From contig CAMTOJ010000001.1 in the NCBI GenBank assembly GCA_947074145.1, positions 1 to 64,000 on the forward strand: 64,000 nucleotides of DNA, given 5' to 3'. The notes under the pieces are model-generated. The model worked only from the letters and a program-made list of their open reading frames with translations, ran no database searches and was not told where the DNA came from. Numbering within the stretch: position 1 is the first letter of the stretch; every line of letters begins with the position of its first letter. The DNA is from an uncultured Bacteroidales bacterium (GTDB lineage: Bacteria > Bacteroidota > Bacteroidia > Bacteroidales > JAUNSR01). The position numbers and the translations under genes were made by a program. Positions 8,938 through 26,534 of this stretch are shown here, in pieces.

Positions 8938-11038
8938 AATTACTATCCTCTTTGAAATCTGATATTATATCAAGTATCTCTTCTCCGAATTTTTCTACTA
9001 TTTTTTTTCCTATTCCCGGTATTGACAAAAGTTCTTTTTCATTCTCAGGCATTTTGTTTGCCAATCCAAGAAGAGCTTTTTGATGAAAAATCGTATAAGG
9101 CGGAATATTTAGTTCCTCCGATTTATCCTTTCTCCATATTCGCAACCTGTTATATAGTTCCGGTTGTTCGATATCGGCAGATATTTCAACTTTTTCTGTT
9201 TCCTTTTTGGTCTTAAGATTCTTTCTTTTCTCATTGCTTAATGATGCTACAGCCCTTGCTTTAAGATACGATTCTATATTAAAACCGTCGGTAGCAGAGA
9301 GTAAACAAGCATTTTTCAGAGTCAATTGATCTATAAGTGTATCATACTCCTTATTAAGAGATTTCTTTAGTTCCTTATTATCTGTTAAAGGTGCAGAATT
9401 ACCTATTCTCTTATTTATAATATTATCAATCTTTTCGGTAAAATAGGCTACACCTTTTCGAACTCTGTCTTTTATGATCTCATTAGTTTCATAATCGGGT
9501 ATTGCCCCCACATAGTTTTGAAGTTGATTGATGAAATTTATGCCAACCGAATATAATTGCTCTTTTGTATCTTTACAAGCCTCCTTAAGACCGAGAATAT
9601 ATGATGGATATAACATTCCTATATTCTCGTCGCATAACCTTGTGTAATGATCAATTCTGTGATATATGCTTTTAAACTCGAATAGATCTGTCAATAACTC
9701 CATAAAATATCGCTTGTGTGCATTATCAAGCATATCTCTATCTGGTTTATTATTGGCAACGTAATCATTGAACTTATCAAGCAAATCATCTTTCTTTACC
9801 AGACTCTGGCTTATTGGAGATAATAAAACTATACCTTCAAGAGTTCTGCATCTACTCATTGCCACATAAACCTGTCCATGAGTAAAAGCTTGTGATACAT
9901 CGATTATCACTTTGTCGAAAGTTAATCCCTGACTCTTATGCACCGTTATAGCCCAAGCTGTCCTAAGCGGATACTGACGGAATTTTCCCTCTATTGTCTC
10001 TTTTATCTCCTTAGTATCGGGATCAATAGTATATTTTGTATTCTGCCACTCAATAGGCGTAACGCTAATCCTTCTGCCTTCAGATTCAACAATTATCTCA
10101 TTATCGCTAATTTTGCTTATAAATCCGATTTTTCCGTTGTAATATAGTTTTTCTTGTCCCGGGTCATTTTTAACAAACATAACCTGAGCACCTGCCTTTA
10201 ACTCCAAAATCTCGTTAGTTGGGTAGGAATATTGTGGAAATTCCCCCTCAATATTTGCTTTAAACTTATATTTTTTAGAATCTATATTCTCAAGTTTCTG
10301 ATCATTTATAGTATTCGATTGTGAGTTATGAGTAGTAAGTGTGATATAACCATCACTTACATTTGACTCAAATCCCGGGATATATCTTTTATTAATCTCT
10401 TTTAGTGACTCATCAGATATCTTCTTATTTCTGATAGAGTTTAGAATATCTAAAAATCTTATATCCTGCTGTCGGTAAACTTTCTGCAGTTCGATAGATA
10501 CATATCCTGCTTTTGCAAGTGCCGTACTATGAAAGAAGAAAGGAGAGGCATAAAAAGAAGATAACATTTTCCATTCATCATCCTTTACAACGGGAGAAAG
10601 TTGCTGTATATCTCCAATCATAACCAATTGAACACCACCGAATGGAAGACTTGAAGATCTGTATCTTCGAAGTGTATCATCAATAGCATCCAACAGATCG
10701 GAGCGAACCATACTTATCTCATCGATAATCAAAGTATCGATACTTTTGATAATATTGATTTTGTCTTTAGAAAATTTATTGGTTTTGTTGACCGTCGTGC
10801 CGTTTGGGAAGAAGGGCGAAAAGGGTAATTGAAAGAAAGAATGGATTGTTACACCTCCGGCATTAATTGCAGCAATACCAGTGGGTGCTACTAAAATAAT
10901 CCTCTTGAAACTATTCTTTTTTATTTTTTTTAGGAATGTTGTTTTTCCTGTTCCCGCTTTACCTGTTAAAAAAATATTCAATGATGTTTCATTTATAAAT
11001 TTCTCTGCCAGCTCAAGCTCATAGTTAGTTTCCGTCAT
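8936..11038 (-). CDS. PIF1/RecD-like SF1 DNA helicase with C-terminal HRDC domain
   Basis: A 700-residue superfamily 1B helicase. Walker A is LTGKAGTGKTTFLKK (about 24-38), followed by APTGIAA, DEISMVRSD (Walker B), IGDIQQLSPVVKD (motif III), and VHKSQGLTFDKVIID with VYVAMSRCRTLEG (motifs V and VI). The final ~80 residues (LYNRLRIWRKDKSEEL to LLSIPGIGKKIVEKFGEEIL) form an HRDC-type nucleic-acid binding domain. This arrangement is common in Bacteroidales. It probably acts in replication-fork or recombination processing; the precise role is unknown. It is divergent from the cyd operon across about 110 bp. Confidence 0.92.
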   Translation of the reverse strand: MTETNYELELAEKFINETSLNIFLTGKAGTGKTTFLKKIKKNSFKRIILVAPTGIAAINAGGVTIHSFFQLPFSPFFPNGTTVNKTNKFSKDKINIIKSIDTLIIDEISMVRSDLLDAIDDTLRRYRSSSLPFGGVQLVMIGDIQQLSPVVKDDEWKMLSSFYASPFFFHSTALAKAGYVSIELQKVYRQQDIRFLDILNSIRNKKISDESLKEINKRYIPGFESNVSDGYITLTTHNSQSNTINDQKLENIDSKKYKFKANIEGEFPQYSYPTNEILELKAGAQVMFVKNDPGQEKLYYNGKIGFISKISDNEIIVESEGRRISVTPIEWQNTKYTIDPDTKEIKETIEGKFRQYPLRTAWAITVHKSQGLTFDKVIIDVSQAFTHGQVYVAMSRCRTLEGIVLLSPISQSLVKKDDLLDKFNDYVANNKPDRDMLDNAHKRYFMELLTDLFEFKSIYHRIDHYTRLCDENIGMLYPSYILGLKEACKDTKEQLYSVGINFINQLQNYVGAIPDYETNEIIKDRVRKGVAYFTEKIDNIINKRIGNSAPLTDNKELKKSLNKEYDTLIDQLTLKNACLLSATDGFNIESYLKARAVASLSNEKRKNLKTKKETEKVEISADIEQPELYNRLRIWRKDKSEELNIPPYTIFHQKALLGLANKMPENEKELLSIPGIGKKIVEKFGEEILDIISDFKEDSN

Positions 11039-11146
11039 CTTTTATCAATTATTACAAACACAAATATAAATCACTTTTTAGTTTTTTTAAAGGCTAAAAA
11101 AAAGAAATTTTCCCTAAGGATTGTTATACAATAAATTCAACTCGAA

Positions 11147-11374
11147 ATGCATGAAAATAATATTTTTTTAAGAGTATTTCATTTTTATCTTGAAGGATTT
11201 AAAAATATGAAATTAGGAAAGACTCTATGGCTCATTATTATTATAAAACTGATAATAATGTTCGGTATTCTAAGAGTTTTCTTTTTTCGAGACTACCTTT
11301 CTCAAAATACTGATAATAAGAAAGAGATTCCTCATTATGTAGGTTCGGAATTAATTAACAGACAAATCAAATAA
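11147..11374 (+). CDS. DUF4492 small membrane protein
   Basis: A 75-residue protein with one transmembrane helix (about 28-48, LWLIIIIKLIIMFGILRVFFF) after an N-terminal FYLEGFKNMKLGKTLW segment characteristic of DUF4492. Family members lie immediately upstream of cydA in Bacteroidota, as here: the gap to cydA is 3 bp. A role in assembly or stability of the bd oxidase, by analogy with the CydX and CydS small subunits, is plausible but inferred from position only. Confidence 0.88.
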   Translation: MHENNIFLRVFHFYLEGFKNMKLGKTLWLIIIIKLIIMFGILRVFFFRDYLSQNTDNKKEIPHYVGSELINRQIK

Positions 11375-11377
11375 TTT

Positions 11378-12961
11378 ATGGATATATCCTCATCTCTTGT
11401 CGATTGGTCACGTGCCCAGTTTGCTCTAACGGCAATGTATCATTGGCTGTTTGTTCCCCTCACACTTGGATTGGGGATAATAATGGCAATAATGGAGACC
11501 ATATATGTTAGAACATCTAAAGAAATATGGAAAAAAATCACCCGATTTTGGATGACATTGTTCGGTGTGAATTTTGCAATAGGTATAGCTACAGGTATTA
11601 TTCTTGAGTTTCAATTCGGAACAAACTGGTCGAACTACAGTTGGTTTGTAGGTGACATATTTGGTGCTCCTCTGGCTATTGAGGGTATAATGGCATTTTT
11701 TCTTGAGGCGATATTTTCTGCAGTGATGTTTTTTGGATGGAATAAAGTGAGTCGTAGATTTCATCTTACCTCAACTTGGATGACAGCCATAGGAGCAACA
11801 TTATCGGCATTGTGGATACTTGTAGCTAATGCATGGATGCAATTTCCTGTTGGAATGACATTTAATCCCGATACTGTAAGGAATGAGATGACCGATTTTT
11901 TTGCAGTGCTTCTTTCTCCTGTTGCAATCAATAAATTCTTGCATACAGTAATCTCATGCTGGGTGTTGGGTTCTGTCTTTGTTATTGGTGTTTCTTGTTG
12001 GTTTCTGATAAAAAAAAGAAATATAGAGCTTGCTATAAAAAGTATAAAGGTCGCTTCTTTGGTTGGTATCTTTTCAATCGTTGGAACACTTGTGACAGGT
12101 GATGATACTGCCAAAGTGGTTGCTCGGGTACAGCCTATGAAACTGGCAGCAATGGAAGGCCTTTACGATGGTAATACTGATCAGAGTATTGTGGCATTCG
12201 GTATTCTCAATCCCGATAAAAGATATGACAATAATGAGAAGGAGTTTCTTTTTGTTATAAGGATCCCTTATGTACTATCTTATCTTGCATACGGTGATAT
12301 TCATTCTTATGTGGCAGGAATAAATGATATAATAAAAGGCGGTTATCAGGCGCAGTATATTGATAAAACACACTACATAATGGAACCGATGGACGAGAGG
12401 ATAGAGAGTGGAAAAACTGCTCTTGCTTCACTGGCTTCGTATAGAAAGGCAAAAAAAGAAAAAAATGATTCATTGATGGATATATCAGGAAAGATACTTC
12501 AAGAGAATTATAAAAATTTCGGATATGGTTACGTTACAGATATAGAGCAGATAATACCTTATGTGCCGATTGTGTTTTATGCGTTCCATACAATGGTACT
12601 TTTAGGATTTTATTTTCTTCTCTTTTTTATCATTTTTATATGTGTAATGGGGCGCAAAAAGTATAACGGCTTAAATAATAGATGGTTGATGTGGATAGGC
12701 CTTTTGAGTATTCCACTTGCATATATAATGTCAGAAGCTGGATGGGTAACTGCCGAAGTTGGTCGTCAACCATGGACAATTCAAGACATATTACCAACTT
12801 TTGCGTCTATTTCACGACTCTCAACTTCTAATGTCCAGACAACTTTTTGGTTGTTTCTGATATTATTTACGGTTTTATTGATTGCTGATATAATGATTAT
12901 AACACGTCAAATAAAGAAAGAAGACATAAACGATAGTCAGTCAGGACATGACGGTTATTAA
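11378..12961 (+). CDS. cydA: Cytochrome bd ubiquinol oxidase subunit I
   Basis: Haem-bearing subunit of the inner-membrane bd oxidase, a high-oxygen-affinity quinol oxidase. The N-terminus DWSRAQFALTAMYHWLFVPLTLGLG carries the conserved haem-ligand His region. MAFFLEAIFSAVMFFGW, the Q-loop region, and the near-invariant AEVGRQPW motif toward the C-terminus are present. Its 527 residues fit the family. It is the second gene of DUF4492-cydA-cydB. Use of bd oxidase indicates tolerance of, and respiration at, low oxygen. Confidence 0.97.
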   Translation: MDISSSLVDWSRAQFALTAMYHWLFVPLTLGLGIIMAIMETIYVRTSKEIWKKITRFWMTLFGVNFAIGIATGIILEFQFGTNWSNYSWFVGDIFGAPLAIEGIMAFFLEAIFSAVMFFGWNKVSRRFHLTSTWMTAIGATLSALWILVANAWMQFPVGMTFNPDTVRNEMTDFFAVLLSPVAINKFLHTVISCWVLGSVFVIGVSCWFLIKKRNIELAIKSIKVASLVGIFSIVGTLVTGDDTAKVVARVQPMKLAAMEGLYDGNTDQSIVAFGILNPDKRYDNNEKEFLFVIRIPYVLSYLAYGDIHSYVAGINDIIKGGYQAQYIDKTHYIMEPMDERIESGKTALASLASYRKAKKEKNDSLMDISGKILQENYKNFGYGYVTDIEQIIPYVPIVFYAFHTMVLLGFYFLLFFIIFICVMGRKKYNGLNNRWLMWIGLLSIPLAYIMSEAGWVTAEVGRQPWTIQDILPTFASISRLSTSNVQTTFWLFLILFTVLLIADIMIITRQIKKEDINDSQSGHDGY

Positions 12962-12991
12962 TATTAGAAACTGAAATAAAAAATTTACTAT

Positions 12992-14137
12992 ATGGATGGT
13001 TTAGAATTTTATCAACATTATTGGTGGTTTATTATATCACTTCTTGCAGCTCTGCTTGTTGTATTTATGTTTGTACAGGGCGGTCAAACATTGATTTTAA
13101 GAATTGGAAAAGATGATATTGAACGGAAAATGATATTAAACTCACTGGGTCGTAAATGGGAAATAACATTTACTACTCTGGTGGTTTACGGTGGTGCTTT
13201 TTTTGCATCTTTTTCTTTATATTATTCGACAAGTTTCGGAGGAGCTTATTGGTTATGGATGATAATCCTCTTTAGCTTTATCATTCAGGCTGTTGCTTAT
13301 GAATATATGAATAAACCCGGAAACTTTCTTGGTCGTAAAACCTATATGGCTTTTCTTTATATTAACGGCTTCATCGGTGTCTATTCAATAGGTATAGCGG
13401 TTTCAACACTATTTACAGGTGCTCCGTTTTATGTCAACAAAGATAATATGTCTGATATGTTTATGCCTGTGATTTCTGTCTGGGGAAATTCTGCACATGG
13501 CCTTGATGCATATTTTAATCTTACTAATATTCTTTTAGGTCTTGCCCTTGTGTTTTTAACAAGAATGTCCGGGTGTTTTTACCTTATGAATAATATTGAT
13601 TATCACGAGATATATCTTAGATGCAGAAAGTTAGCAATAATCAACAGTATTCCTTTTTTAATCTGCTTCCTTGGATTTATAGCATTTATATTTGTAGGGG
13701 AAGGATATGCAGTTGATAATATCAATGAGGTTATTTATCTTGAAAAATATAAATATGCCATCAACATGATACAAGTTCCTTTTATCGGTATAATTTTTGT
13801 TCTTGGCGTATTGTTAGTAGTTTTTTCAATATTTCGTACTGCTTATAGTCATACTGCAAGACAAACATTCTGGTATAATGCTGCAGGTACATTGTTTGTC
13901 GTTCTTGCATTGTTTTTATCACTTGGATATAATGATACCGCATATTATCCTTCAAATATCGACATTCAAAGTTCTCTTACTATCACAAATAGTTCATCAA
14001 GTATTTTTACACTTAAAGTTATGTCGGTAGTTTCACTTCTTATACCTATTGTTCTGGTTTATGGTGCAGTGGTTTGGAGAGCAATGGATAAATGTAAAAT
14101 TACAGAAGCAGAGTTTAAGGATGATACCTCTGAGTAA
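12992..14137 (+). CDS. cydB: Cytochrome bd ubiquinol oxidase subunit II
   Basis: Multi-spanning partner subunit of CydA, 381 residues. The N-terminus (YQHYWWFIISLLAALLVVFMFVQGGQTL) and the internal GRKTY, NSAHGLDAYFN and SHTARQTFWYNA segments are typical of the Bacteroidota CydB type. It starts 30 bp after cydA and ends the operon. A palindromic repeat follows 21 bp downstream of the stop. No cydCD assembly genes are in the window. Confidence 0.95.
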   Translation: MDGLEFYQHYWWFIISLLAALLVVFMFVQGGQTLILRIGKDDIERKMILNSLGRKWEITFTTLVVYGGAFFASFSLYYSTSFGGAYWLWMIILFSFIIQAVAYEYMNKPGNFLGRKTYMAFLYINGFIGVYSIGIAVSTLFTGAPFYVNKDNMSDMFMPVISVWGNSAHGLDAYFNLTNILLGLALVFLTRMSGCFYLMNNIDYHEIYLRCRKLAIINSIPFLICFLGFIAFIFVGEGYAVDNINEVIYLEKYKYAINMIQVPFIGIIFVLGVLLVVFSIFRTAYSHTARQTFWYNAAGTLFVVLALFLSLGYNDTAYYPSNIDIQSSLTITNSSSSIFTLKVMSVVSLLIPIVLVYGAVVWRAMDKCKITEAEFKDDTSE

Positions 14138-14158
14138 TTTAAATTTTCTGCTTGCAAC

Positions 14159-14254
14159 TTTCGCTGCTCCTTGCTAGTTATCAACTGATAACTAGTAAAG
14201 AATCAACTGATAAGTAGCAAGTTATCAACTGATAACTAGCAAGGAGCAGCGAAA
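14159..14254. repeat. Long imperfect palindrome with three direct repeats
   Basis: The 34-nt arms 14159-14192 and 14221-14254 are reverse complements apart from two central positions of each arm. They start and end with TTTCGCTGCTCCTTGC / GCAAGGAGCAGCGAAA. Within them a ~18-nt unit, (T)TATCAACTGATAACTAG, occurs three times in direct orientation: 14177-14195, 14200-14217 (degenerate) and 14221-14239. The RNA would form a long hairpin just after cydB. It has no T-run, so it looks more like a REP-type or mobile palindromic element than a simple terminator. Confidence 0.85.
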
Positions 14255-14456
14255 AATGATTTGGGTAAAAAATAAGTACTTGTGATTATTCTGAATTAGC
14301 CATTTTTGATGAAAGATGTTTATATTAAGTTTTTGTTAATCTCTTATTTTCTAAGTTGATTGAAATAATTTGATTTATAAATTAGATTGACTCTGTATTA
14401 TAATAGTTATGCTTATTTATTTTTTACTTTTGAAAAATTGATAATTAACACATAAT

Positions 14457-14657
14457 ATGGACGCAACAAAGAGAAGTAATATAAAAATTGGTCAGCTTGT
14501 TAATATAGTATTGAAGGCAGATCAGCGTACCGGTGATTTGACAGAAGGAGTGGTGAAAAATATTTTGACCAAATCACCAAATCATCCTCATGGGATAAAA
14601 GTTAGACTTGAAACAGGAGAAGTTGGACGTGTTAAAGAGATTTTAGAAGATGAATAA
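14457..14657 (+). CDS. ywbE: YwbE family protein
   Basis: A 66-residue protein matching the short YwbE/DUF2196 family: RSNIKIGQLVNIVLKADQ, then RTGDLTEGVVKNILTKSPNHPHGIKVRLETGEVGRV. It forms a small beta-rich domain. Its function is unknown. A -7-like TACTTTTG lies at 14425-14432. The next gene begins 14 bp downstream, so the two are probably co-transcribed. Confidence 0.88.
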   Translation: MDATKRSNIKIGQLVNIVLKADQRTGDLTEGVVKNILTKSPNHPHGIKVRLETGEVGRVKEILEDE

Positions 14658-14671
14658 TATCTATATGCTGT

Positions 14672-15610
14672 ATGAAAAGTAGAATTAAAAAGAGGGTATT
14701 GAATTTCGTTATTACAAATGTTGTAATATTTTCTATTATACTAATCGTTATACCAACTGTTATAATGAAAAGTATGCTAAACAAAAAGATTACCTACACC
14801 CAAATGTGGGCACCGGGGGAGTTTGGAATTGAAAAAGCTGATACGCTAAATTTAAAATCATCTGATAATTATAACGTCGAAGTATTTGTTGTAGAAGCCG
14901 ATACGCCTAAGTGTGCAATTATTTGTTTAACGGGTATGCAGAACCCTTCAGTGTCCATTTATTATGGGCACTCGAAGATGTTTCTTGACCAATCTTATTC
15001 ATGCTTTATGACAGAGGTTCGAGGTCACGGTGGGAGTGATGGTGATAAAATCTGTGTCGGCTATCAAGAGTGGAGAGATGTAGAGGCTGTAACGAATTAT
15101 ATTAAATCTCAACCTAAATATAAAGATGTACCTATTGTTATTATGGGAGTATCAATGGGAGGTGTCGTGGCGATAAATTCAACAGGTTTAAATAATGATA
15201 TTGATGGATTGATCTCATTATCTGCATTCTCATCTTGGGAGGATATATTCTGTGATAATATGTCACATAGTGCTCCTTCTATTTGGGTGACTATGGAGCG
15301 ACCATTTATCAACCTTGTATCAGCTTTTAAATATGGAGTTAACTCATGGAGTGTTAGCCCAAAAGAGATGATTAAAGAACTTAATAATCGCCCTGCTCTT
15401 ATTATGCACACCAAGGAGGATAATCAGGTTGGATACTCAAATTTTGAACGAATCATCAATAATGCCCCTCAAGGTGTTGAGACATTTGTTCGTGATAATA
15501 ATAACCATTTTTTTGTGACGGACTTTATAAATCCTCAAAACGATACAGAGTATTGTGAGAGAATTAATGATTTTATTAATAGAGTTATTGAAAGCGGTGC
15601 TCGCAACTAA
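14672..15610 (+). CDS. Membrane-anchored alpha/beta hydrolase
   Basis: A 312-residue serine hydrolase with an N-terminal membrane segment (about residues 9-32). The nucleophile elbow is GVSMGG, preceded by the RGHGGSDGD strand-loop. The acid is likely Asp in HTKEDNQVGY and the catalytic His lies in NNNHFFVTDF. It resembles lysophospholipase/peptidase-type membrane hydrolases, but the substrate cannot be deduced. It follows ywbE closely, probably in one transcript. The start ATG is the first in frame after the ywbE stop. Confidence 0.85.
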   Translation: MKSRIKKRVLNFVITNVVIFSIILIVIPTVIMKSMLNKKITYTQMWAPGEFGIEKADTLNLKSSDNYNVEVFVVEADTPKCAIICLTGMQNPSVSIYYGHSKMFLDQSYSCFMTEVRGHGGSDGDKICVGYQEWRDVEAVTNYIKSQPKYKDVPIVIMGVSMGGVVAINSTGLNNDIDGLISLSAFSSWEDIFCDNMSHSAPSIWVTMERPFINLVSAFKYGVNSWSVSPKEMIKELNNRPALIMHTKEDNQVGYSNFERIINNAPQGVETFVRDNNNHFFVTDFINPQNDTEYCERINDFINRVIESGARN

Positions 15611-15720
15611 ATATTGCTTTTACTTGTCGATTTATTTTTCCTATTGAGCAGATAAGATCTTGCTTTAAAGAATCGAGAACGAGCTTCCAAAAAGAGCTAA
15701 ATGGAAAAGTTGTAAAGTGC

Positions 15721-15765
15721 AAAGCTACACTTATACCGTAAAATGCAGATATAAATGTAGCTTTT
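15721..15765. terminator. Probable shared terminator hairpin
   Basis: AAAGCTACA (15721-15729) pairs with TGTAGCTTT (15756-15764) around a ~26-base loop, between the convergent hydrolase and lipoprotein genes. The T-run is short on both sides, so strength is uncertain. Confidence 0.45.
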
Positions 15766-15779
15766 ATGATTTCAAAATG

Positions 15780-16238
15780 CTAATCAATCTCTAATGGAGA
15801 AGTTGTTTCTTCTAATGTTTCATTATAATGATCCTCTGTTATTTTTAATTTGAAGATAGATCCATCCTCATTAATATCATATATCTCTGTATTGAAGAGA
15901 TTTGTTTTTGATTTATGGTAAGAATAACCTAATTTATTGTATAAAATACATTGACCATCATCAAATAATAGTTTTATAAAACGAATATGCTCCAAAATAG
16001 AATAACAAGTATAAGTAACAATTTCTGTACTTCGCATCTCTTTTGGGGGAATAAATAAATTCCATGACTCTTCAGATTTATTGTAATCTGTATACGCAAT
16101 AATTCTTATACTTTGATTTGTTGTATTCTCATAAATAAATGTCGCCTTGTATTCTTCGTCTGGAGAGCAACTATATACAACAACTAAAAATAGCATTAAG
16201 ATTATACTTATATATCTGTTATTTCCAATTTTCTTCAT
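15780..16238 (-). CDS. Hypothetical lipoprotein
   Basis: A 152-residue protein with a lipoprotein signal peptide: basic N-terminus, a hydrophobic core (about 9-22), and the lipidated Cys24 in VVYSCSPDEEY. The acidic PDEE directly after the Cys resembles the lipoprotein export signals that take Bacteroidota lipoproteins to the cell surface. I recognise no domain in the remainder, which looks beta-rich (ATFIYENTTNQSIRIIAYTD). The start at MKKIGNN was chosen because it places the signal peptide correctly; 13 upstream in-frame codons are not needed. Confidence 0.65.
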   Translation of the reverse strand: MKKIGNNRYISIILMLFLVVVYSCSPDEEYKATFIYENTTNQSIRIIAYTDYNKSEESWNLFIPPKEMRSTEIVTYTCYSILEHIRFIKLLFDDGQCILYNKLGYSYHKSKTNLFNTEIYDINEDGSIFKLKITEDHYNETLEETTSPLEID

Positions 16239-16373
16239 ATTTCTTGAAAAGTTTATCAATTTTATCATCGGTAACACCTGCAGGTTTCCTTTCCTTCTTT
16301 ATAAAAATGCTATTAATATTGATTATATTTTTAAAGCACAATTACAGTATATTGTTTATTTGGTATATTTTGG

Positions 16374-16404
16374 TTGTGAATTTAACATTCAAATATTATA
16401 TTTG
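16374..16404 (+). promoter_or_regulatory. Bacteroidetes-type promoter
   Basis: TTG (16374-16376), a 20-bp spacer and TATATTTG (16397-16404) match the Bacteroidetes -33/-7 consensus. It points into the broken frame at 16417-16606 and could also supply the barrel genes downstream. Confidence 0.6.
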
Positions 16405-16416
16405 CAAAAAAAATAC

Positions 16417-16606
16417 GTGTATTGCTTATGTAAATTTATTAAATGTAAGTGTGCGATTAACGAGGAAGCTCTGAGATATTTTGGGTTGATTAGCAACACT
16501 TAAAGAAACTTTAAATTCTCATAAAATCAAATTAGACCAAGCAGATGCAATCATTGCAGGTCGTCTTGGTAATAATTGGGCAGGCTTCAGAATAGTTAAA
16601 GATTAG
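16417..16606 (+). pseudogene. Small frameshifted gene or gene fragment
   Basis: Two open frames in adjacent registers look like one broken reading frame. The first can begin at GTG 16417 and ends ...INEEALRYFGLISNT with TAA at 16501-16503. The second is open from 16490 to TAG 16604-16606 and ends QADAIIAGRLGNNWAGFRIVKD, which looks like real protein. A +1 shift within 16490-16500 would fuse them into about 62 residues. I do not recognise the family. It lies just after a good promoter. It could be a decayed gene, a sequencing indel, or less likely programmed frameshifting. Confidence 0.45.
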
Positions 16607-16626
16607 TTTCTCTTAAAAATTAGCCT

Positions 16627-17247
16627 ATGCAACGACTCATTACACTAACTATTATCCTTACACTGGTATCAATTGATGGCTTTTCTCAATCTGACTCTAC
16701 AACAAAGAATTATTGGATAATTGGGATGAATGCAGGTCTAAGTGAACTTGTGGATGAAAGCATTTTTTCTTTAGGTTTTAATGCAGGATATGAGATTAAC
16801 TTTCGAAAGCTACCATTCTTGACAATTGATCCCATAATCGGAGTAGGTATAGTAAGAAGTTCTGTACTAAGTACTTTTAAAGAGTTTGTATTGTCAAGTT
16901 ATAAAATTCAATATTTCACCTTTGGAGTAGCTCCTAAACTGCAAATAATTAATCCTGATAGAGATGCTCTTCTCTATTTTGAGAATGAATTATCTTTTTG
17001 GAACGGTGCTGCAGAAATCGAGGATGAAGGATATGATCAAAGCAGAAAGAATCGTCAATATTTTAATTTCTATTATAGTCCTAAAGTTGGAATAGCGATT
17101 AAGGTTAATGATGAATATTTATCAATATGGGTCGGCGTTTCTACTCTTAATATGAATAAAATTCTTAATCACAATCTACATTATGGTCAAGAAGAATATA
17201 GTGATCAAAACATCTCACTATGTTGTGGTTTCAAAATATTATTTTAA
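16627..17247 (+). CDS. Outer-membrane beta-barrel protein (first of tandem pair)
   Basis: A 206-residue protein with a signal peptide (residues about 1-21, ending GFSQS). After it come alternating hydrophobic/aromatic strands with periodic glycines (WIIGMNAGLSEL, FSLGFNAGYEINF, YYSPKVGIAIKV) and an aromatic-rich C-terminal strand (ISLCCGFKILF), consistent with a small 8-strand porin-like barrel. No specific family is recognisable. The second barrel gene begins 14 bp downstream, so the pair is probably co-expressed. Confidence 0.7.
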   Translation: MQRLITLTIILTLVSIDGFSQSDSTTKNYWIIGMNAGLSELVDESIFSLGFNAGYEINFRKLPFLTIDPIIGVGIVRSSVLSTFKEFVLSSYKIQYFTFGVAPKLQIINPDRDALLYFENELSFWNGAAEIEDEGYDQSRKNRQYFNFYYSPKVGIAIKVNDEYLSIWVGVSTLNMNKILNHNLHYGQEEYSDQNISLCCGFKILF

Positions 17248-17261
17248 TTAATTATTCAAAA

Positions 17262-17831
17262 ATGAAAATAACAACACTAGCAATTATGCTACTTTTCTCT
17301 TTTGCGACGTTTGCTCAAAAAGGAAATAAAACTTCGCCTTTTAACATTATGTTTGATTATCATTACAATTTAGGTCTAACAGATCGAGGTTATTTACACA
17401 AATCCAATCGTTCTGATCTAAAGATGTATGGCAACTCTATTCATCTTACAGGTTTGTATAATTTAAATCAAAAATGGTCAGTTGGAGCCGGATTAGGATT
17501 GGATAGGTATGAGAATTTAGGTTATAACACATTCCCTATATTTGTCACTTCCCACTTCTCTCCATTGGAGCATATTCCTTCAGCTTATTTATACACCAAT
17601 TTAGGTTACGCAGTGGGTGGAGAGGCGTTCACAAAGGGGATGTTGTTCGATTTAGGTCTTGGATATAAGTTAATGTTGAAAAGGCACTTTGGATTTAATT
17701 TCCAATTTGGATATAATTTGAAGGATTTTAGAAGAGAAATGACTGTTCTCGATTCTAATGGAAGGATTTATGATAAAAGCTATAACCAGTTGAGAAATTC
17801 TATTTCATTTGGCTTGGGGTTGGTTTTTTAA
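17262..17831 (+). CDS. Outer-membrane beta-barrel protein (second of tandem pair)
   Basis: A 189-residue protein. The start at MKITTLAIMLLFSFATFAQKG gives a clear signal peptide cleaved near FAQ; the 14 in-frame codons upstream overlap the preceding gene and spoil it, so they were dropped. The mature part is glycine/aromatic-rich with barrel-like strands (NLGLTDRGYLHKS, WSVGAGLGLDRY, FGFNFQFGYNL) and ends in SISFGLGLVF, an outer-membrane C-terminal signature ending in Phe. Similar length and context suggest that it functions with, or is a diverged paralogue of, the first barrel. Confidence 0.72.
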   Translation: MKITTLAIMLLFSFATFAQKGNKTSPFNIMFDYHYNLGLTDRGYLHKSNRSDLKMYGNSIHLTGLYNLNQKWSVGAGLGLDRYENLGYNTFPIFVTSHFSPLEHIPSAYLYTNLGYAVGGEAFTKGMLFDLGLGYKLMLKRHFGFNFQFGYNLKDFRREMTVLDSNGRIYDKSYNQLRNSISFGLGLVF

Positions 17832-17907
17832 AATAGTAAATATGAGCAAATATTATTGTTTGCCATTTTATATATATACTTTTATGCAGTGAAGTATTAA
17901 AAAAAAG

Positions 17908-17948
17908 AAGTCTTGGTTGAAAGCTAATTCAACTAAGACTTTTTTTTA
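17908..17948 (+). terminator. Terminator after the barrel pair
   Basis: A 12-bp stem (AGTCTTGGTTGA with TCAACTAAGACT, one G-U pair) at 17909-17940 is followed by eight T (17941-17947 and flanking). It lies about 80 bp beyond the barrel stop. Confidence 0.85.
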
Positions 17949-18176
17949 TTTTTTCTTTACTCCATTTATCTTGAAAAGATATCTCATTTTATACGGATTT
18001 ATAGGAGAAGGCAATATGGGTATAGTTTATATCAAATATTTAAAATATTGGCATTATTAAGTAGACACGATATTGCCGGAGAATGAAATTTCCCCTCAAC
18101 CCCCAAAGAAACCCTCCATACTTTGTATATATTCCGTATTTTGATTTATTTTGAATAATAAATTACATTATAGAAT

Positions 18177-18769: not shown

Positions 18770-21700
18770 ATGTCAGAACGTATTAGAAAGCATATATATA
18801 TATTATTTATCATAATAGGCGGGATATTGGGTTGTTCCGCCATATTTGCGTCCGGTTCTCAGATACCTTATTTACCACAGGATAATACCAATAACTCGGA
18901 TGAAGAAGATAAGAAAAATGTAAAATTCTCTGTCAAAAAGACTTTTACAGAGGATTGGGAAGATCTTGATAAACAAAATCCTATCGATCTTAAATCTCCT
19001 TCAAATATCAAAGAGGATATTGAATATGATTATCTTACAGATACTTATGTGTATAAAACTAAAGTAGGAGATCAAGTAATATCTGTTCCTTTTAACATGA
19101 CAAAAGAGGAGTATCTGAATTATACCAGACGAAAACTTATTCAATCCTATTTTAATAGTAAGAATGCTGAATTGCTTGTAAAGGAGGGTGATAATGAGTT
19201 TAACTTCCTTGACATGCAGTTTGGACTCGGACCGGCTGAAAAGATATTCGGTCCCGGAGGTATCCAGGTAAGAACGCAAGGTTCGGCAGAGATATCATTC
19301 GGGCTAAAGAAAAATAAGATTGATAATCCATCACTTCCTGCTAAATCAAGAAACAAAACATATTTTGATTTCGACGAAAAGATTCAGCTTAATGTCAATG
19401 CAAAAGTTGGCGATAAAATGGATTTTGCGTTGAATTACAATACTGATGCTACTTTCGATTTTGATGCCCAGCAGTTAAAACTTTCTTATCAAGGCAAAGA
19501 GGATGAGATAATTAAATCGCTTGAGGCAGGTAATGTGAGTATGACAACCGGATCGTCGCTTATCAGAGGTAGTGCGGCTCTTTTTGGTGTTAAGACAACT
19601 TTGCAATTCGGAAAACTTAATGTTACGGCACTTCTTGCTCAACAGGAGTCTACATCTCAGAGTGTCAGTTCAAAAGGAGGGGCTCAGACAAGAAATTTTG
19701 AGTTTACCGCAGATTCATATGATGAAGATCGTCACTTCTTCCTTTCTCATTATTTCAGGGATAACTATGATCAATTTATCTCAAAACTTCCATACATATC
19801 CTCCGGAATAGAGATCTCAAAAATTGAGGTTTGGGTAACCAATAAAAGAGGAAATTATGATCAGGCAAGAAATATAGTGGCTTTTATGGACCTTGCGGAG
19901 TCGACAAAGCTCGGGAGTAATTACTGGCAATCGTCTGGGATAGGTTATCCGTCAAATACTTCTAATAATCTATATCAAACAATTGTCAATGAATTTCCTG
20001 ATGCAAGAAATATTAATCAGGTAACTCAGTCACTATCACAGCTTTCAGCATTCGGGATAGATGGAGGAAAAGATTTTGAGAAGGTTGAGAGTGCGAGAAG
20101 AATGTCAGAATCAGAGTATATACTTAATAAGAGTCTGGGATATATCTCTCTTAAAAGTAAACTAAACCCTGATGAAGTTCTTGCTGTTGCTTATGAATAT
20201 ACTGCAAATGGCAAGGTGTATCAGGTAGGAGAGTTCTCTACCTCAACTGAGAATTCTCAACAAAGTATGTATCTGAAATTATTGAAAGGTACAGCTGTTA
20301 ATACCAGACTTCCGATGTGGCATCTTATGATGAAGAATGTCTATTCGTTGAATGCTTATCAGATTCAGAAAGATAAGTTTAAGCTTGATATTCAATATAT
20401 GAGCGATACTACCGGTGTTTATCTGAATTATATACAGGCGGGAAATATTGCAGATCAGCTATTGATAAGGGTTTTAAATCTTGACCGTCTTGACTCTCAA
20501 AATGAGAGAAATCCTGACGGTTATTTCGATTATGTCGAAGGTTTTACAGTGATCCCCTCAATTGGACGCGTTATTTTCCCTTCGATTGAGCCTTTCGGTT
20601 CTTTTTTAGCTTCTAAAATCGGAAATGCCCAATTGGCAGATAAATATTGTTATCAGGAACTTTACGATTCGACTCTTACAGTGGCACGACAAGTGGCAGA
20701 GAAAAATAAGTTTCGAATAAAAGGAGAATATCGCTCTTCATCCGGTTCTGAAATAAATCTTAATGCAATGAATGTTCCAAGAGGTTCTGTTGTTGTAACT
20801 GCCGGAGGTGTGACGTTGACCGAAAATACCGATTATACTGTTGATTATACAATGGGTATTGTCACAATCCTTAATCAGAGTATCCTTGATGCCGGAACAA
20901 ACATAAATGTATCACTTGAGAGTCAGTCAATGTTTAGTATGCAAAGAAAAACAATGATGGGACTTGATGTTCAGTATGCCTTTAATAAGGATTTCAATAT
21001 AGGAGCAACCGTAATGCATCTATCCGAAAAACCTTTGACAACAAAGGTAAATATGGATGATATACCTCTGAACAACACAATTTACGGCTTTAATGCAAGT
21101 TATAAAACCTCATTTATGTGGTTGACAAATCTTATGGGATCTGTGCCATGGATAGATGCAACAGCACCATCTTCTTTTTCAATAAACGGAGAATTTGCTC
21201 AGCTTAAACCGGGACACTCAAAGACTATTACTAAAGATGGCCATGCTTATCTTGATGATTTTGAATCATCACAAACAGGTTATGATATTCGTACGCCTTA
21301 TTCATGGCAAATGGCATCAACACCTTATGATCCATCGTCAAATGCTCTGTTTCCGGAAGCTGCATTGTCTAACGATGTGGCATATGGGAAAAATCGTGCC
21401 TTACTTAACTGGTATAATATTGACCGACTGTTTACACAAAAAAATTCGTCACTTACGCCTGCTCATATAAAAAGAGATTTGGAACAGCTTTCAAATCATT
21501 ATGTTCGCGAGGTAAGTTATAGTGAAATATATCCAAATAAAGAGTTAAGCTATGGTGAGTCCGGTATGCTTAATATAATGAATATCTCATTCTATCCTAC
21601 AGAAAGAGGTCCTTATAACCTTGATTGGGAGGGGATTGATGAGATGGGATATCTGACAAATCCTAAATCTCGCTGGGGTGGTATGATGAGAAAAATCGAT

Positions 21701-24700
21701 AATACCGATTTTGAAGCTCAAAATATTGAATATATTCAGTTTTGGATGATGGATCCATTTATTTATGATTCAACCAATCATGTCGCGGGTGGTGATCTAT
21801 ATTTTAACCTGGGAGAGGTATCGGAAGATATTTTGAAAGATGGAATGAAATCATTTGAGAACGGTCTGCCTATAGATGGAGATACAACATATCTTGCAAC
21901 GACAGTTTGGGGACGAGTTTCTAAAAGAACTTCCACCGTATATGCTTTTGAGACAGCAACAGGGGCAAGAAAACTTCAAGACGTAGGTCTTAATGGTCTT
22001 TCGACTGAGGATGAATTTAATTTTTCTTCTTATAAAAATTATGTTGAAAGAGCAAGCGGACGTCTGTCCGATGCAGGATATCAGCGACTTATAAGTGATC
22101 CTTTCTCTTTTCTTAATGACCCTGCAGGTGATAATTACCATTATTACAGAGGTTCGGATTATGATAATCAAGAGGTAGATATCCTTACAAGATATAAACG
22201 TTATAATGCGGTGGAGGGTAACTCTACAGCATCGGAAGATTCGCCTGAGAGATATGATATCTCTGCCAGAACAACTCCTGATGTGGAGGATATTAACCAG
22301 GATAATACACTTAATGAGTATGAGAGATATTATCAGTATAAAATATCTCTTCGTCCAACCGATTTGACAGTTGGTAATAATTATGTCAGTGATGTAAAAA
22401 CATCAAGGGTAAAATTAAGAAACGGAAAAGAGGAAACTATAAAATGGTATCAGTTTAAGATACCTTTAACAGAATATCAAAAGAAAGTTGGAGCGATAAA
22501 CGATTTTAAAACTATTCGTTTCATCCGTTTATTCCTTACTGATTTTGAAAAAGATGTGCATCTTCGTTTTGCTTCTATGGAGTTGATGCGTGGCGATTGG
22601 AGAACCTATACACAAGAACTAAATAAAGACGGAGTTACTCCGGTTTCAAAAGGATCTATTGCTGTTTCTGTAGTAAATATTGAAGAAAATGCAGGATCTA
22701 TTCCTGTAAATTACATTATGCCTCCGGGAGTTACTCGTGTGGTTGACCCGGGACAGTCGCAGATTACTCAGCTTAATGAGCAGTCGATGGCTCTTAAGAT
22801 TGGAGATCTTGCGCCATCTGATGCCCGAGCAGTTTATAAAAACAGTTCTATCGATATGCGTCAATATAAACGAATACAAATGTTTGTACATGGTGAGGCG
22901 TTTATTGATAATCTGACTAATTTAAAGAGTGGTGAACTTTCTGTATTTATGCGTCTTGGTAGCGATTATAAAGACAATTACTATGAATATGAAATACCTA
23001 TTTCTCTTACAGAACCCGGTATTTACAATAATAATAGTCTTACTGACAGAAAAACTGTTTGGCCAGAATCAAATATGTTTGATTTTCCATTGACTTTATT
23101 GACCGATCTTAAACTTGAAAGAAATGCAGAGAAACGTAAGAATTATTCAAATGTTACATTCAATACTGTTTACTCGATTTATGATCCTGAGAAATTGAGA
23201 AATAGGGTATCAATTGTTGGTAATCCTTCTCTTTCAGAGGTCAGAACCATTATGATTGGTGTTAGAAATAATAGTAAAACTATCAAAGATGCTAATGTTT
23301 GGGTTGACGAACTTCGTCTTGTCGGGTTTAATGAAGAGGGCGGATGGGCAGCCAAAGCAAATGCCAGTTTAGGTATAAGTGATATTGCATCTATCAATGT
23401 CGGCGGTCAGATTGAGACAGCCGGGTTCGGTAGTGTGGACCAGAGTCTTAGCCAACGTCGTATTGATAACTATTATCAATATAATATATCTACACAAGTG
23501 GAGGCAGGGCGTCTTATTCCGGAACCTGTAAAACTAAAGGCTCCTGTTTATTATTCTTATTCACAAGAGGTGACAACTCCTGAGTATGATCCTTATAATC
23601 AGGATATTAAACTTTCTCAGAGTCTTGAGAATTGTGATACAAAAGCACAGCGTGATTCTGTAAGATCTCTTTCTCAGGAGGTTGTAACGGTTGAAAGTTT
23701 CAGCGTATCAGGTTTGAAATTTAATATACAAGGAGATAAACCAATGCCTTGGGATCCGGCGAATCTAACTATGAGTTATGCATATTCGAGAACTTCAAAA
23801 CGTGATCCAACAACAGATTTTGAAAATAATTATAATTACCGAGGTTCAATAAGTTATAATTATAGCCCATACTTTAAACCATGGAAACCATTTTCCGGTA
23901 TAAAAAGTAAGTCGCCTTATGTTAGACTTGCCAAAGATTTTACATTTAATTGGTTGCCAAATAATATCGGTTTATATTCAAATATGAACAGAACATATTA
24001 TGAACAACAATTGAAAAATGTGGATGAAACGGGTATGTCGGAGTTTTATGTTCCAATCTCTTTTAGTAAGAATTTCTTGTGGGACAGACAAACAACAATA
24101 AGTTGGGATCTTCTAAAAACGTTGAAACTAAATTTCAATGCATCCACTAATTCTCGTATAGATGAACCGAATACACCTGTTAATAAACAGTTGTATCCTG
24201 ATGAATATGAACATTGGAAGGATTCTGTAAGACAGAATATATTAAGAATGGGTACTCCGATTAAATTTAATCAGACTTTTGATGCTGCTTATACTTTGCC
24301 ATTGAATAAGATACCTTTCCTTGATTGGAGTAGTGCTTCGGTGAAATATAATTCAAGTTATGTTTGGAATAAGGGGACGTTTGTGGATGAGTTCACTAAT
24401 CTTGGAAATAATATTACAAATCAGGCTCAGTACCAGGGTGATATTAAATTTAATATGGAGAATTTATATAATAAATCGGCTTTCTTGAAAGAAACAAACC
24501 GTAAGTTTTCTCCTACCAATAGAGCCTCTAATAATAAGAATAATAATAATAATGCGAAAGCTAAGAAAAAATTCTCTCAAAGAATTCAATTGAAAAAAGA
24601 TACAACAGTTACCGTTAAACATAATCTTGATAATAAAAATCTTAAGGTAACTGCACTGAATTCAAAGAAAGAACCATATTCAATAAAGTATAAGGTAAAA

Positions 24701-26224
24701 GACAAGAATACTATTATTATTACAACTAAGGATTCTGAAGCTGTACAGTTAACCATTAATCAGGGTAAACGCCCCGAAGAGGAATTATGGTATCAGACTG
24801 CTCAATATGGGTCAAGAGCTTTAATGGCAGTAAGAAATATCTCTCTCGGATATAAACGAACATCAAGTACTTATCTGCCATCTTTCCAACCATCAGTGGG
24901 TGATTTCATGGGTCAGAATAACGAATCGTTAATGGCTCCCGGGCTTGGATTTGCTTTTGGATTTGAGACAGGAGAAGAGTATATAAATAAGGCCTTGAGA
25001 AATAACTGGCTTATAGTAAATGACTCATTAACCTCTCCGGCTTCATTTGCAATAACCGAAGATTTGCAGTATAAAATATCTATTGAGCCTTTTAGAGATT
25101 TTAAGATTGATCTTAATGGTAGTCGTGTACACACGCAAAGTTCTACGTATCAGTTTATGTTCCCAGATGTTCCTCGTCAACATTCCGGTTCATTTACAAT
25201 GACAACTATTGCAGTCAAAACATCTCTAAAAAGATATAAAGCAGAGAATGGATATCAGTCGGATGCTTTCGATAATTTAGTAAAATATAGAAGTACAATT
25301 TCAGGAAGAATCAATTCTCAATATGCAGGTGCCAAATATCCCAATACAGGATTTCTTGCATCATCTCATCTTGCGGGAACCACATTTGATCCAAATATTG
25401 CAGGTAACCGACTTAATTCGGCAGATGTTCTTATCCCTGCTTTTGTAGCAGCTTATACGGGAAGAGATGCTAAAAATGTGGGACTTTCTCCATTCCCTTC
25501 TATATTGAGTATTCTACCAAACTGGAGGGTTACTTATGGTGGATTGGTAAGACTTATTCCGGGAGCATCGAAATATTTGAGATCCATTAATGTGAATCAT
25601 GCTTATAGATGTACTTATAGTGTAGGTTCTTTTGCTTCATACTTAAATTATATTGAGAATTCGGAAGGACTAGGTTTTGCACTTGATGCAACTAATGATT
25701 GTCCGATGCCATCTTCTCCTTTTGATATTGGAAGTGTAAGTATTACTGAAAGTTATGCTCCGCTTATCGGATTTGATCTGAATTTCAAAAACGGAGTTAC
25801 TGCTAAGATCGAGTATAAGGATACAAGAAATCTGAGTCTTAATATTACTTCTGTACAGATTGTTGAATCGGTATCGAAAGATGTTACTGTGGGTGCTGGA
25901 TATAAAATAGCCAATTTCAATACTATAATAGGAATGAAAGGTGGTGGTCAAAAAGGTGTGAATCATGATCTTACATTGCGTAGTGATTTCTCTTTCAGAA
26001 AGCAAAATGCTCTTATCAGAAAGATTGATGAAAATTATACACAAGCAACATCGGGCAATAAATCTTTGACTATTAAGTTTACCGCAGATTATACATTTAG
26101 TAAATATTTGACAATCAGAGGATATTATGATAAACAGATAAATACACCGCTTGTTTCTTCATCTTCTTATCCTATTTCAAATTCTAATTTCGGGGTTACT
26201 CTTAAGATGGCGCTTACCAGATAA
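18770..26224 (+). CDS. sprA: Type IX secretion translocon SprA (Sov)
   Basis: A 2,484-residue giant outer-membrane protein, close to the 2,400-2,500 residues known for F. johnsoniae SprA and P. gingivalis Sov. SprA is the 36-strand outer-membrane pore of the type IX secretion system (gliding, protease and adhesin export). It has a signal peptide (about 1-29), early repeats of LQFGPAE-like and VGDKMDFALNYNTDATFDFD text, and YDIRTPYSWQMASTPYDP and WGGMMRKIDNTDFEAQNIEYIQFWMMDPF segments typical of the family. The C-terminal barrel ends in FGVTLKMALTR. An (AAT)n tract near 24529-24553 encodes a poly-Asn linker. No other T9SS gene is in the window. Confidence 0.95.
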   Translation: MSERIRKHIYILFIIIGGILGCSAIFASGSQIPYLPQDNTNNSDEEDKKNVKFSVKKTFTEDWEDLDKQNPIDLKSPSNIKEDIEYDYLTDTYVYKTKVGDQVISVPFNMTKEEYLNYTRRKLIQSYFNSKNAELLVKEGDNEFNFLDMQFGLGPAEKIFGPGGIQVRTQGSAEISFGLKKNKIDNPSLPAKSRNKTYFDFDEKIQLNVNAKVGDKMDFALNYNTDATFDFDAQQLKLSYQGKEDEIIKSLEAGNVSMTTGSSLIRGSAALFGVKTTLQFGKLNVTALLAQQESTSQSVSSKGGAQTRNFEFTADSYDEDRHFFLSHYFRDNYDQFISKLPYISSGIEISKIEVWVTNKRGNYDQARNIVAFMDLAESTKLGSNYWQSSGIGYPSNTSNNLYQTIVNEFPDARNINQVTQSLSQLSAFGIDGGKDFEKVESARRMSESEYILNKSLGYISLKSKLNPDEVLAVAYEYTANGKVYQVGEFSTSTENSQQSMYLKLLKGTAVNTRLPMWHLMMKNVYSLNAYQIQKDKFKLDIQYMSDTTGVYLNYIQAGNIADQLLIRVLNLDRLDSQNERNPDGYFDYVEGFTVIPSIGRVIFPSIEPFGSFLASKIGNAQLADKYCYQELYDSTLTVARQVAEKNKFRIKGEYRSSSGSEINLNAMNVPRGSVVVTAGGVTLTENTDYTVDYTMGIVTILNQSILDAGTNINVSLESQSMFSMQRKTMMGLDVQYAFNKDFNIGATVMHLSEKPLTTKVNMDDIPLNNTIYGFNASYKTSFMWLTNLMGSVPWIDATAPSSFSINGEFAQLKPGHSKTITKDGHAYLDDFESSQTGYDIRTPYSWQMASTPYDPSSNALFPEAALSNDVAYGKNRALLNWYNIDRLFTQKNSSLTPAHIKRDLEQLSNHYVREVSYSEIYPNKELSYGESGMLNIMNISFYPTERGPYNLDWEGIDEMGYLTNPKSRWGGMMRKIDNTDFEAQNIEYIQFWMMDPFIYDSTNHVAGGDLYFNLGEVSEDILKDGMKSFENGLPIDGDTTYLATTVWGRVSKRTSTVYAFETATGARKLQDVGLNGLSTEDEFNFSSYKNYVERASGRLSDAGYQRLISDPFSFLNDPAGDNYHYYRGSDYDNQEVDILTRYKRYNAVEGNSTASEDSPERYDISARTTPDVEDINQDNTLNEYERYYQYKISLRPTDLTVGNNYVSDVKTSRVKLRNGKEETIKWYQFKIPLTEYQKKVGAINDFKTIRFIRLFLTDFEKDVHLRFASMELMRGDWRTYTQELNKDGVTPVSKGSIAVSVVNIEENAGSIPVNYIMPPGVTRVVDPGQSQITQLNEQSMALKIGDLAPSDARAVYKNSSIDMRQYKRIQMFVHGEAFIDNLTNLKSGELSVFMRLGSDYKDNYYEYEIPISLTEPGIYNNNSLTDRKTVWPESNMFDFPLTLLTDLKLERNAEKRKNYSNVTFNTVYSIYDPEKLRNRVSIVGNPSLSEVRTIMIGVRNNSKTIKDANVWVDELRLVGFNEEGGWAAKANASLGISDIASINVGGQIETAGFGSVDQSLSQRRIDNYYQYNISTQVEAGRLIPEPVKLKAPVYYSYSQEVTTPEYDPYNQDIKLSQSLENCDTKAQRDSVRSLSQEVVTVESFSVSGLKFNIQGDKPMPWDPANLTMSYAYSRTSKRDPTTDFENNYNYRGSISYNYSPYFKPWKPFSGIKSKSPYVRLAKDFTFNWLPNNIGLYSNMNRTYYEQQLKNVDETGMSEFYVPISFSKNFLWDRQTTISWDLLKTLKLNFNASTNSRIDEPNTPVNKQLYPDEYEHWKDSVRQNILRMGTPIKFNQTFDAAYTLPLNKIPFLDWSSASVKYNSSYVWNKGTFVDEFTNLGNNITNQAQYQGDIKFNMENLYNKSAFLKETNRKFSPTNRASNNKNNNNNAKAKKKFSQRIQLKKDTTVTVKHNLDNKNLKVTALNSKKEPYSIKYKVKDKNTIIITTKDSEAVQLTINQGKRPEEELWYQTAQYGSRALMAVRNISLGYKRTSSTYLPSFQPSVGDFMGQNNESLMAPGLGFAFGFETGEEYINKALRNNWLIVNDSLTSPASFAITEDLQYKISIEPFRDFKIDLNGSRVHTQSSTYQFMFPDVPRQHSGSFTMTTIAVKTSLKRYKAENGYQSDAFDNLVKYRSTISGRINSQYAGAKYPNTGFLASSHLAGTTFDPNIAGNRLNSADVLIPAFVAAYTGRDAKNVGLSPFPSILSILPNWRVTYGGLVRLIPGASKYLRSINVNHAYRCTYSVGSFASYLNYIENSEGLGFALDATNDCPMPSSPFDIGSVSITESYAPLIGFDLNFKNGVTAKIEYKDTRNLSLNITSVQIVESVSKDVTVGAGYKIANFNTIIGMKGGGQKGVNHDLTLRSDFSFRKQNALIRKIDENYTQATSGNKSLTIKFTADYTFSKYLTIRGYYDKQINTPLVSSSSYPISNSNFGVTLKMALTR

Positions 26225-26237
26225 GACAATAATATAT

Positions 26238-26262
26238 AGCCGGGATAATCCCCGGCTTTTTT
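26238..26262 (+). terminator. Terminator of ruvA-sprA
   Basis: AGCCGGG pairs with CCCGGCT around a short AT loop, followed by six T. It starts 14 bp after the sprA stop and is one of the few GC-rich sites in the surrounding intergenic DNA. Confidence 0.9.
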
Positions 26263-26285
26263 GTGTCTATAAAGATGTTTTTTTT

Positions 26286-26345
26286 ACACCTTGCAAGATT
26301 TATTGTTAAACCTAACAAGGTGTTATATTAAGCCATGCAAGGTGT
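26286..26345. repeat. Dispersed palindromic repeat, copy A
   Basis: Three linked motifs: ACACCTTGCA (26286-26295), AACCTAACAAGGTGTT (26309-26324) and TGCAAGGTGT (26336-26345, the reverse complement of the first). The same two motifs recur at 45342-45400 in a different arrangement. A shorter echo, GAGGTGTTATAT, is near 26428. The surrounding 26,263-26,625 interval has no gene I can support. Confidence 0.75.
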
Positions 26346-26534
26346 CGTATTAAATTTAACATAGAAAGAGAAAATCAATCTAATCTTTTGGAAAACTATC
26401 GATATACAATTATATAATGGCGTACAAGAGGTGTTATATCCAATATAATGCCAGAACTTATATTAATAAATAGAAACTGCATTTTATAATACTGTTTATT
26501 AAATTATCTTTGTATAAGGGTTTGAAAATCTTTC

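Follow-up and report, generated by a model that had tools for sequence, protein, structure and literature searches.

A palindrome behind cydB is one copy of a dispersed intergenic repeat family with a 22-bp step in an uncultured Bacteroidales bacterium

In MITEs, an autonomous parent with the same ends is often, though not always, present. The MITE-like short elements Correia, NEMIS and BOX fall into discrete size classes or vary in how many inner modules they contain, and we know of no 22-bp dyad step in any of them. Plasmid iterons with 22-bp repeats, such as those of R6K, are direct repeats about two helical turns apart, and Rep proteins bind plasmid iterons at successive sites on one face of the helix. 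REP sequences are described, in the accessible text, as small palindromes of 20-40 bp, most of them tagged at one end by GTAG or CGTC (PMC3733652). As far as the open-access description goes, the nearest published relative of the family reported below is BrickBuilt, a MITE of Porphyromonas gingivalis with 19 intergenic copies in ATCC 33277 (PMC4596501). Its body is a spacer-free tandem minisatellite of 23-nt units with small inverted-repeat ends and long stem-loops; no BLASTn match beyond the species is reported in that text, promoter activity was shown, and tandem repeats of 41, 23 and 22 nt are mentioned for P. gingivalis W83 (PMC4596501). No description of a period common to several species was found in the open-access text searched, passages of the BrickBuilt paper included.

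The window analysed here is a stretch of 64,000 nucleotides from an uncultured Bacteroidales bacterium (GCA_947074145.1, contig CAMTOJ010000001.1, positions 1 to 64,000), in which a palindrome lies behind a gene that we take to be cydB from its sequence and family. This palindrome is best explained, with a probability of about 0.6, as one copy of a species-specific, non-coding intergenic family of MITE/BIME-like, non-autonomous elements made of arrays of 22-bp dyads, which would spread through a trans-acting activity and owe their step to a protein or to a copying ruler. Judged by description, the family resembles the accessible account of BrickBuilt in its Bacteroidales host, species restriction, intergenic copies, body of tandem units, inverted-repeat ends and long stem-loops, and differs from it by a step of 22 instead of 23, by having no recognised leader or tail, by holding 3-4 sites and by being a near-palindrome over the whole element. 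The features at the cydB locus are as follows.

12992-14137, forward strand: presumed cydB, the upstream neighbour, ending 26 bp ahead of the palindrome core
14154-14259, no strand assigned: whole element, aligned with 16 close paralogues (alignment A1, model R1), with an 86-bp core at 14164-14249
14159-14193, forward strand: left arm of the palindrome (repeat search)
14220-14254, reverse strand: right arm of the palindrome (repeat search)
14177-14192, forward strand: dyad box 1, GTTATCAACTGATAAC (motif search)
14199-14214, forward strand: dyad box 2, with a degenerate half, starting exactly 22 bp past box 1
14221-14236, forward strand: dyad box 3, exactly 22 bp past box 2 (motif search)

The preliminary description, made from the letters of the window, had claimed two inverted-repeat arms of 34 nt, and the repeat search returned arms of 35 nt each, 94% complementary and 26 nt apart. 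The same description saw an 18-nt unit repeated three times with a degenerate middle copy. Three copies are indeed present, starting at 14173, 14195 and 14217, with an identity to the first of 66% for the middle copy and 90% for the third, but their spacing is 22 and 22, and the 18 nt are only the conserved part of a 22-bp step. Independently, Tandem Repeats Finder reported 14176-14243 as period 22 with 3.1 copies, 80% matches and 0% indels, the score of 101 being the highest among the 36 rows of the window. Another period-22 row of that program (62649-62709) was dropped, as it lies within a coding gene and has 9% indels. The palindrome is more than a chance structure: its RNA fold reaches -56.6 kcal/mol (z -11.3) and its DNA fold -34.4 (z -10.4), values attained by 0/200 shuffles in either case.

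The genome searched for further copies was the window's own assembly, a draft of 3.71 Mb in 106 contigs that is 95% complete. Allowing up to 2 mismatches, GTTATCAACTGATAAC occurs in it 27 times on the forward and 32 times on the reverse strand, the backwards control giving 2 and 0. The family is dispersed, BLASTN having recovered 17 distinct close copies on 17 different contigs, with a core of exactly 86 bp in 16 of them and of 88 bp in copy C31. The core is laid out in a single polarity as a 9-bp end, three 22-bp units GCNAGTTATCARYTGATAACTN, GC and the inverted 9-bp end, bordered by TTTTYG on one side and CRAAAA on the other, and most close copies have a middle unit with one degenerate half, which gives the element its polarity. 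Variation among these copies takes the form of alternative short blocks, and column covariation in their alignment is found mostly between adjacent columns, that is, as block haplotypes. Copies C1 and C55 share an identical inner stretch of 55 bp between different flanks, as copying would predict.

A covariance model built from the 17 copies, with 150 of 1372 candidates scored, matched the genome 87 times at E up to 1 over the two strands together. These matches comprise the 17 copies and at least 28 further loci, with a best E above 0.05 for 4 of the 28. Twelve of the further loci span 104-106 model positions, 15 span 81-85 and one is partial, the two length classes differing by about one 22-bp unit; most carry CACCTTGCAAGGTG-like boxes, and they sometimes share a contig, as do three on C5. 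The resulting count of at least 45 loci is a lower bound, given the fraction of candidates scored and given that the model missed an element at 45342 in the window itself. A genome-wide search for the arm and the unit had been proposed as a check, with the absence of any other copy as the contrary outcome; the search found 17 close and 28 diverged loci instead. Besides the palindrome, two diverged elements stand in the window.

26272-26361, no strand assigned: second, diverged element with 22-bp steps, CCTTGCAAGG subfamily (lag scan, TRF and sequence)
45342-45430, no strand assigned: third, more decayed element, with an exact ACACCTTGCAAGGTGT box and then degenerate sites at 22-bp steps, a register read by eye in an element that the covariance model missed

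The second element occupies the gap that separates ORF 18770-26224 from ORF 26626-27318, the former, of 2484 aa, being presumably SprA-like. Shortly ahead of this element, at about 26240-26264, is a GC-rich hairpin that has a T run. By eye, copies C31 and C28 pair ends like those of the first subfamily with inner boxes of the second, which argues for a single superfamily, and both subfamilies are read here as such, their common feature being a CTNGCNAG site at each 22-bp step. In 44 copies, consecutive exact CTNGCNAG sites are spaced by 22 (10 times), 44 (15 times) or 66 (4 times) and by no other distance. Allowing up to 2 mismatches, the genome has 69 matches to the pattern CTTGCAAG-N14-CTTGCAAG and 2 to its control. 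Copies C34a (L149, on C34) and C89 (L150) are identical in element and flanks near two contig starts, through either a duplicated region or an assembly overlap.

Growth of a palindromic unit by duplication, as in REP/BIME elements, had been suggested together with a cognate Y1 transposase (RAYT). The first half of this suggestion agrees with the many intergenic copies that differ by whole palindromic units; the second is not supported. The Y1_Tnp profile (PF01797) has 0 matches in the window's own genome, 95% complete, whereas the same search is positive in 28 of 41 genomes of the phylum, a set that includes this one, and in 5 of 14 controls. Of 7 genomes reached by way of named loci, 5 likewise have no match, B. 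fragilis being one of them. Mobilisation of the family by a RAYT is thus very unlikely, even though its copies are dispersed, intergenic, palindromic, polar and mosaic as in REP/BIME families, from which they also depart by their fixed 22-bp step, their greater length, with a core of 86 bp, their lower number and their ends TTTTYGCTGCTCC/GGAGCAGCRAAAA, which have no GTAG or CGTC tag.

The likeness to MITEs lies in short, non-coding, dispersed copies with terminal inverted repeats. A search of the draft assembly for an autonomous parent with the same ends found none, all 31 matches to the arm pattern (up to 3 mismatches) falling inside 16 known copies. Inspection of 17 flanks by eye revealed no consistent direct repeat that could be a target-site duplication; the flanks have in common a T-rich motif about 10-26 bp beyond either end of the core, clear in the first subfamily and weak in the second, which is either part of the element or a preferred target.

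The window family is species-specific at the sensitivity used. BLASTN with the window copy matched 0/59 relatives, 4 of them congeners, and each of 98 relatives has 0-5 matches to CTTGCAAG-N14-CTTGCAAG at up to 2 mismatches vs 69 here. In the four congeners, the covariance model matched only G001:C225, weakly (E 0.05), and this match was rejected as a family member, being another kind of hairpin. Distant blastn of the window copy against plasmid and phage collections, from which the records nearest to this genome may be absent, gave no match; neither did a degenerate arm in viral contigs, where very close records may likewise be absent, nor one exact 21-base arm in a genome contig collection possibly devoid of the closest records. 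The fkpB-aroC gap was considered as an empty site: the element is absent from it in G001 and G002, but the gap has diverged too far to reveal a duplication, no element was recognised in the 500-bp gap of G004, and gene order is broken in G003. In that gap of G004 (L045 300-480), two imperfect direct copies of an AT-rich stretch were seen by eye.

Other species of the genus carry 22-bp arrays of other units. In the closest sister species (L059 / G003), a palindrome of unrelated sequence stands directly after cydB, at L059 5151-5224, and belongs to a family with at least 61 matches at at least 40 places in G003, where 40 of 78 candidates were scored, and 0 matches in the genus's other 4 genomes, the window's own included. 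The copies in G003 are built as arrays of 22-bp units, their linkers resembling CNGTACNG, and successive exact linkers in 40 copies are spaced by 22 (40 times), 21 (once), 44 (5 times) and 66 (once). At lag 22, G001 has 3 arrays in 164 kb at 28/44 matches, other lags having a mean of 0.20, and 0 at 31/44; zeros at a high threshold in samples of this size weigh little, as these two counts illustrate. Two unit types were distinguished there by eye, one at L229 7753 and L231 958 and the other at L227 476 and L232 19859, and G001 seems to own two 22-bp families, one with a GCCACGTACGTGGC palindrome. Only weak arrays occur in G002 (2 at 26/44 vs 0.25 for other lags, 0 at 28), and G004 has no lag-22 array in 198 kb.

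Placement of the window family is intergenic. With a simple ORF caller and a tolerated overlap of up to 30 bp, 0/44 copies lie inside an ORF of at least 80 aa, copy C3 overlapping a gene end by 24 bp. The neighbours of the 44 copies are in tandem in 21 cases, divergent in 13 and convergent in 6, 4 copies being at edges, a distribution much like that of gaps of 130 bp or more in the window (14 tandem, 7 divergent, 3 convergent). Protection of the cyd mRNA by a 3' hairpin, as first surmised, may still be a local effect of the window copy; as a general role of the family it is not supported, the copies having no 3'-end bias and 13 of the 40 with both neighbours called being located between divergent genes.

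That the elements act as RNA at transcript 3' ends, as terminators or mRNA-stabilising hairpins, would suit the very stable fold 26 bp past cydB and the sister family of G003, in which 12 of the 37 copies with both neighbours called are found between convergent genes vs 4 of 30 background gaps, a background that includes the element gaps. Several G003 copies (L183, L186, L189 and others) end in a T run, and these ends together with the convergent-gene excess suggest that the G003 family may double as terminators. At the window palindrome, the T's stand before and the A's after, opposite to the layout of an intrinsic terminator, so that its T run is on the wrong side, and the GC-rich stem-loop followed by a T run is not seen there; 0 terminator-like sites were called in 13900-14700, and Rfam gave no match at gathering score in 11000-18000. 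Added to the copies between divergent genes, this makes an RNA role a quite improbable explanation of the family, and hairpins after genes in these genomes need not be terminators.

Whether it is the hairpin or the duplex that is recognised receives mixed evidence. The 34-bp hairpin beats shuffles on 4 of 5 measures and beats all slid versions, with 91.0% of positions paired vs 89.3% in shuffles (2/500) and a covariation score reached in 1/500, and selection on the hairpin is therefore possible, a point in favour of the RNA role. At variable linker positions, no base-pair covariation was found in three judgeable comparisons (46/72 vs 47.4 expected in the window's own genome, 37/81 vs 40.2 in G003), while two central linker bases of G003 covary slightly more than expected (51 vs 46.0).

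Arrays of sites can also be kept for their position by the cell, as are MatS, Noc and SlmA sites and iterons, and the copies could be architectural or segregation sites bound by a nucleoid protein, not selfish elements. Strict phasing, dyad units, hardly any length change in diverged copies and the scatter of the 17 close copies over as many contigs would all fit such a role, as would the 3 of 40 G003 copies that share an orthologous gap with one of the 45 copies here, namely those after cydB and the pairs C21b/L196 and C34b/L177. This count excludes low-identity protein pairs (22-47%, taken as paralogues) and leaves out C62/L176. Among the candidates, C55/L205 was uncounted, as its homology lies 879 bp away, and C6b/L180 and C78/L178 were on the wrong side. 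Three pairs are somewhat above the one or so expected by chance on a rough guess, and shared placement is thereby only a hint. The other 37 of the 40 G003 copies have no clear orthologous gap in common with the 45 copies examined, diverged copies share contigs, as the three on C5 do, and sequences are unlike between species of a single genus, all of which renders an architectural role rather unlikely.

More widely, self-similarity was scanned at each lag from 12 to 79 in 77 cydB neighbourhoods (L062-L138), a set rich in Bacteroidaceae, of Bacteroides, Phocaeicola, Prevotella-type genera and other Bacteroidales, some species being present twice. At 31/44 matches, lag 22 gives 17 events in 15 of the 77 loci, while other lags average 0.42 and reach 3 at most (44 and 66 excepted; lag 21 gives 2 and lag 23 gives 1), and this excess persists at thresholds from 27 to 33. 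Unit sequences of the arrays vary between species. Of 24 arrays, 21 are located outside ORFs of 100 aa or more, in DNA of which ORFs cover 86%, and a period of 22 is no multiple of 3. Inverted-repeat arms better than in all 20 mononucleotide shuffles are found in 16 of 23 arrays (7 fail), and in 12 of 18 outside the genus. An uncultured Bacteroides (L084 8300-8900) has a long array in which 18 sites resemble CCGTACGG and almost all follow one another at 22 bp. In two further loci from two species, L089 6640-6720 and L098 6930-7010, 22-bp arrays that have only ACACGTNCGTGT in common come immediately after what seems to be the same gene end.

Lag 22 also stands out in B. fragilis, with 3 arrays in 200 kb at 29/44 against a mean of 0.03 for other lags, and 1 vs 0 at 31, but not in most distant samples. 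P. vulgatus has one weak array in 200 kb at 28 and 0 at 29. At 31, twenty other genomes of the order gave a single array in 267 kb (mean 0.29 and maximum 5 for other lags), three genomes from elsewhere in the class gave 1 weak array in 240 kb at 28 and 0 at 31, three genomes from other classes of the phylum gave one in 160 kb, DnaA-box-like, and E. coli gave 0 in 50 kb. The DnaA-box-like repeats with a 22-bp step are at about 4479 of L274, possibly a replication origin. The feature is concentrated in this genus and in Bacteroidaceae and is not universal, the samples being small. Tentatively, and with the odds against it, Bacteroidaceae and some related Bacteroidales may have in common an unrecognised class of intergenic arrays with a period fixed at 22 bp and a unit rewritten between species, built and maintained by one conserved machinery with a two-turn ruler and a fast-evolving specificity, its families replacing each other even in the same gap, as after cydB. 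In that tentative reading, the ruler could be an oligomerising DNA-binding protein or an enzyme duplicating 22-bp segments.

The body of the window family, read by preference as a non-autonomous intergenic element, is an array of 22-bp dyad units of about two helical turns each, with the G/C-centred site CTNGCNAG every 22 bp, an AT-rich dyad in between and mosaic inner haplotypes. Copies would spread through an activity supplied in trans. The 22-bp phase could come from a protein sitting on successive dyads along one face of the helix, or from a copying or cutting enzyme equipped with a 22-bp ruler; a step that stays constant through different sequences suggests either such a two-turn protein geometry or a copying ruler. 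The family could act as a protein array in the manner of R6K-type iterons, while it differs from plasmid iterons by occupying dozens of chromosomal loci and by the lack of a match of the window copy in the plasmid collection. Conserved machinery with a fast-evolving sequence specificity would give a constant period and a changing sequence, the combination expected where something measures DNA and does not read it. If this is true, the unit sequence of each species would be a direct bait for the protein, and the genus, three species of which have distinct families while a fourth has weak candidates, would be a natural experiment on family replacement.
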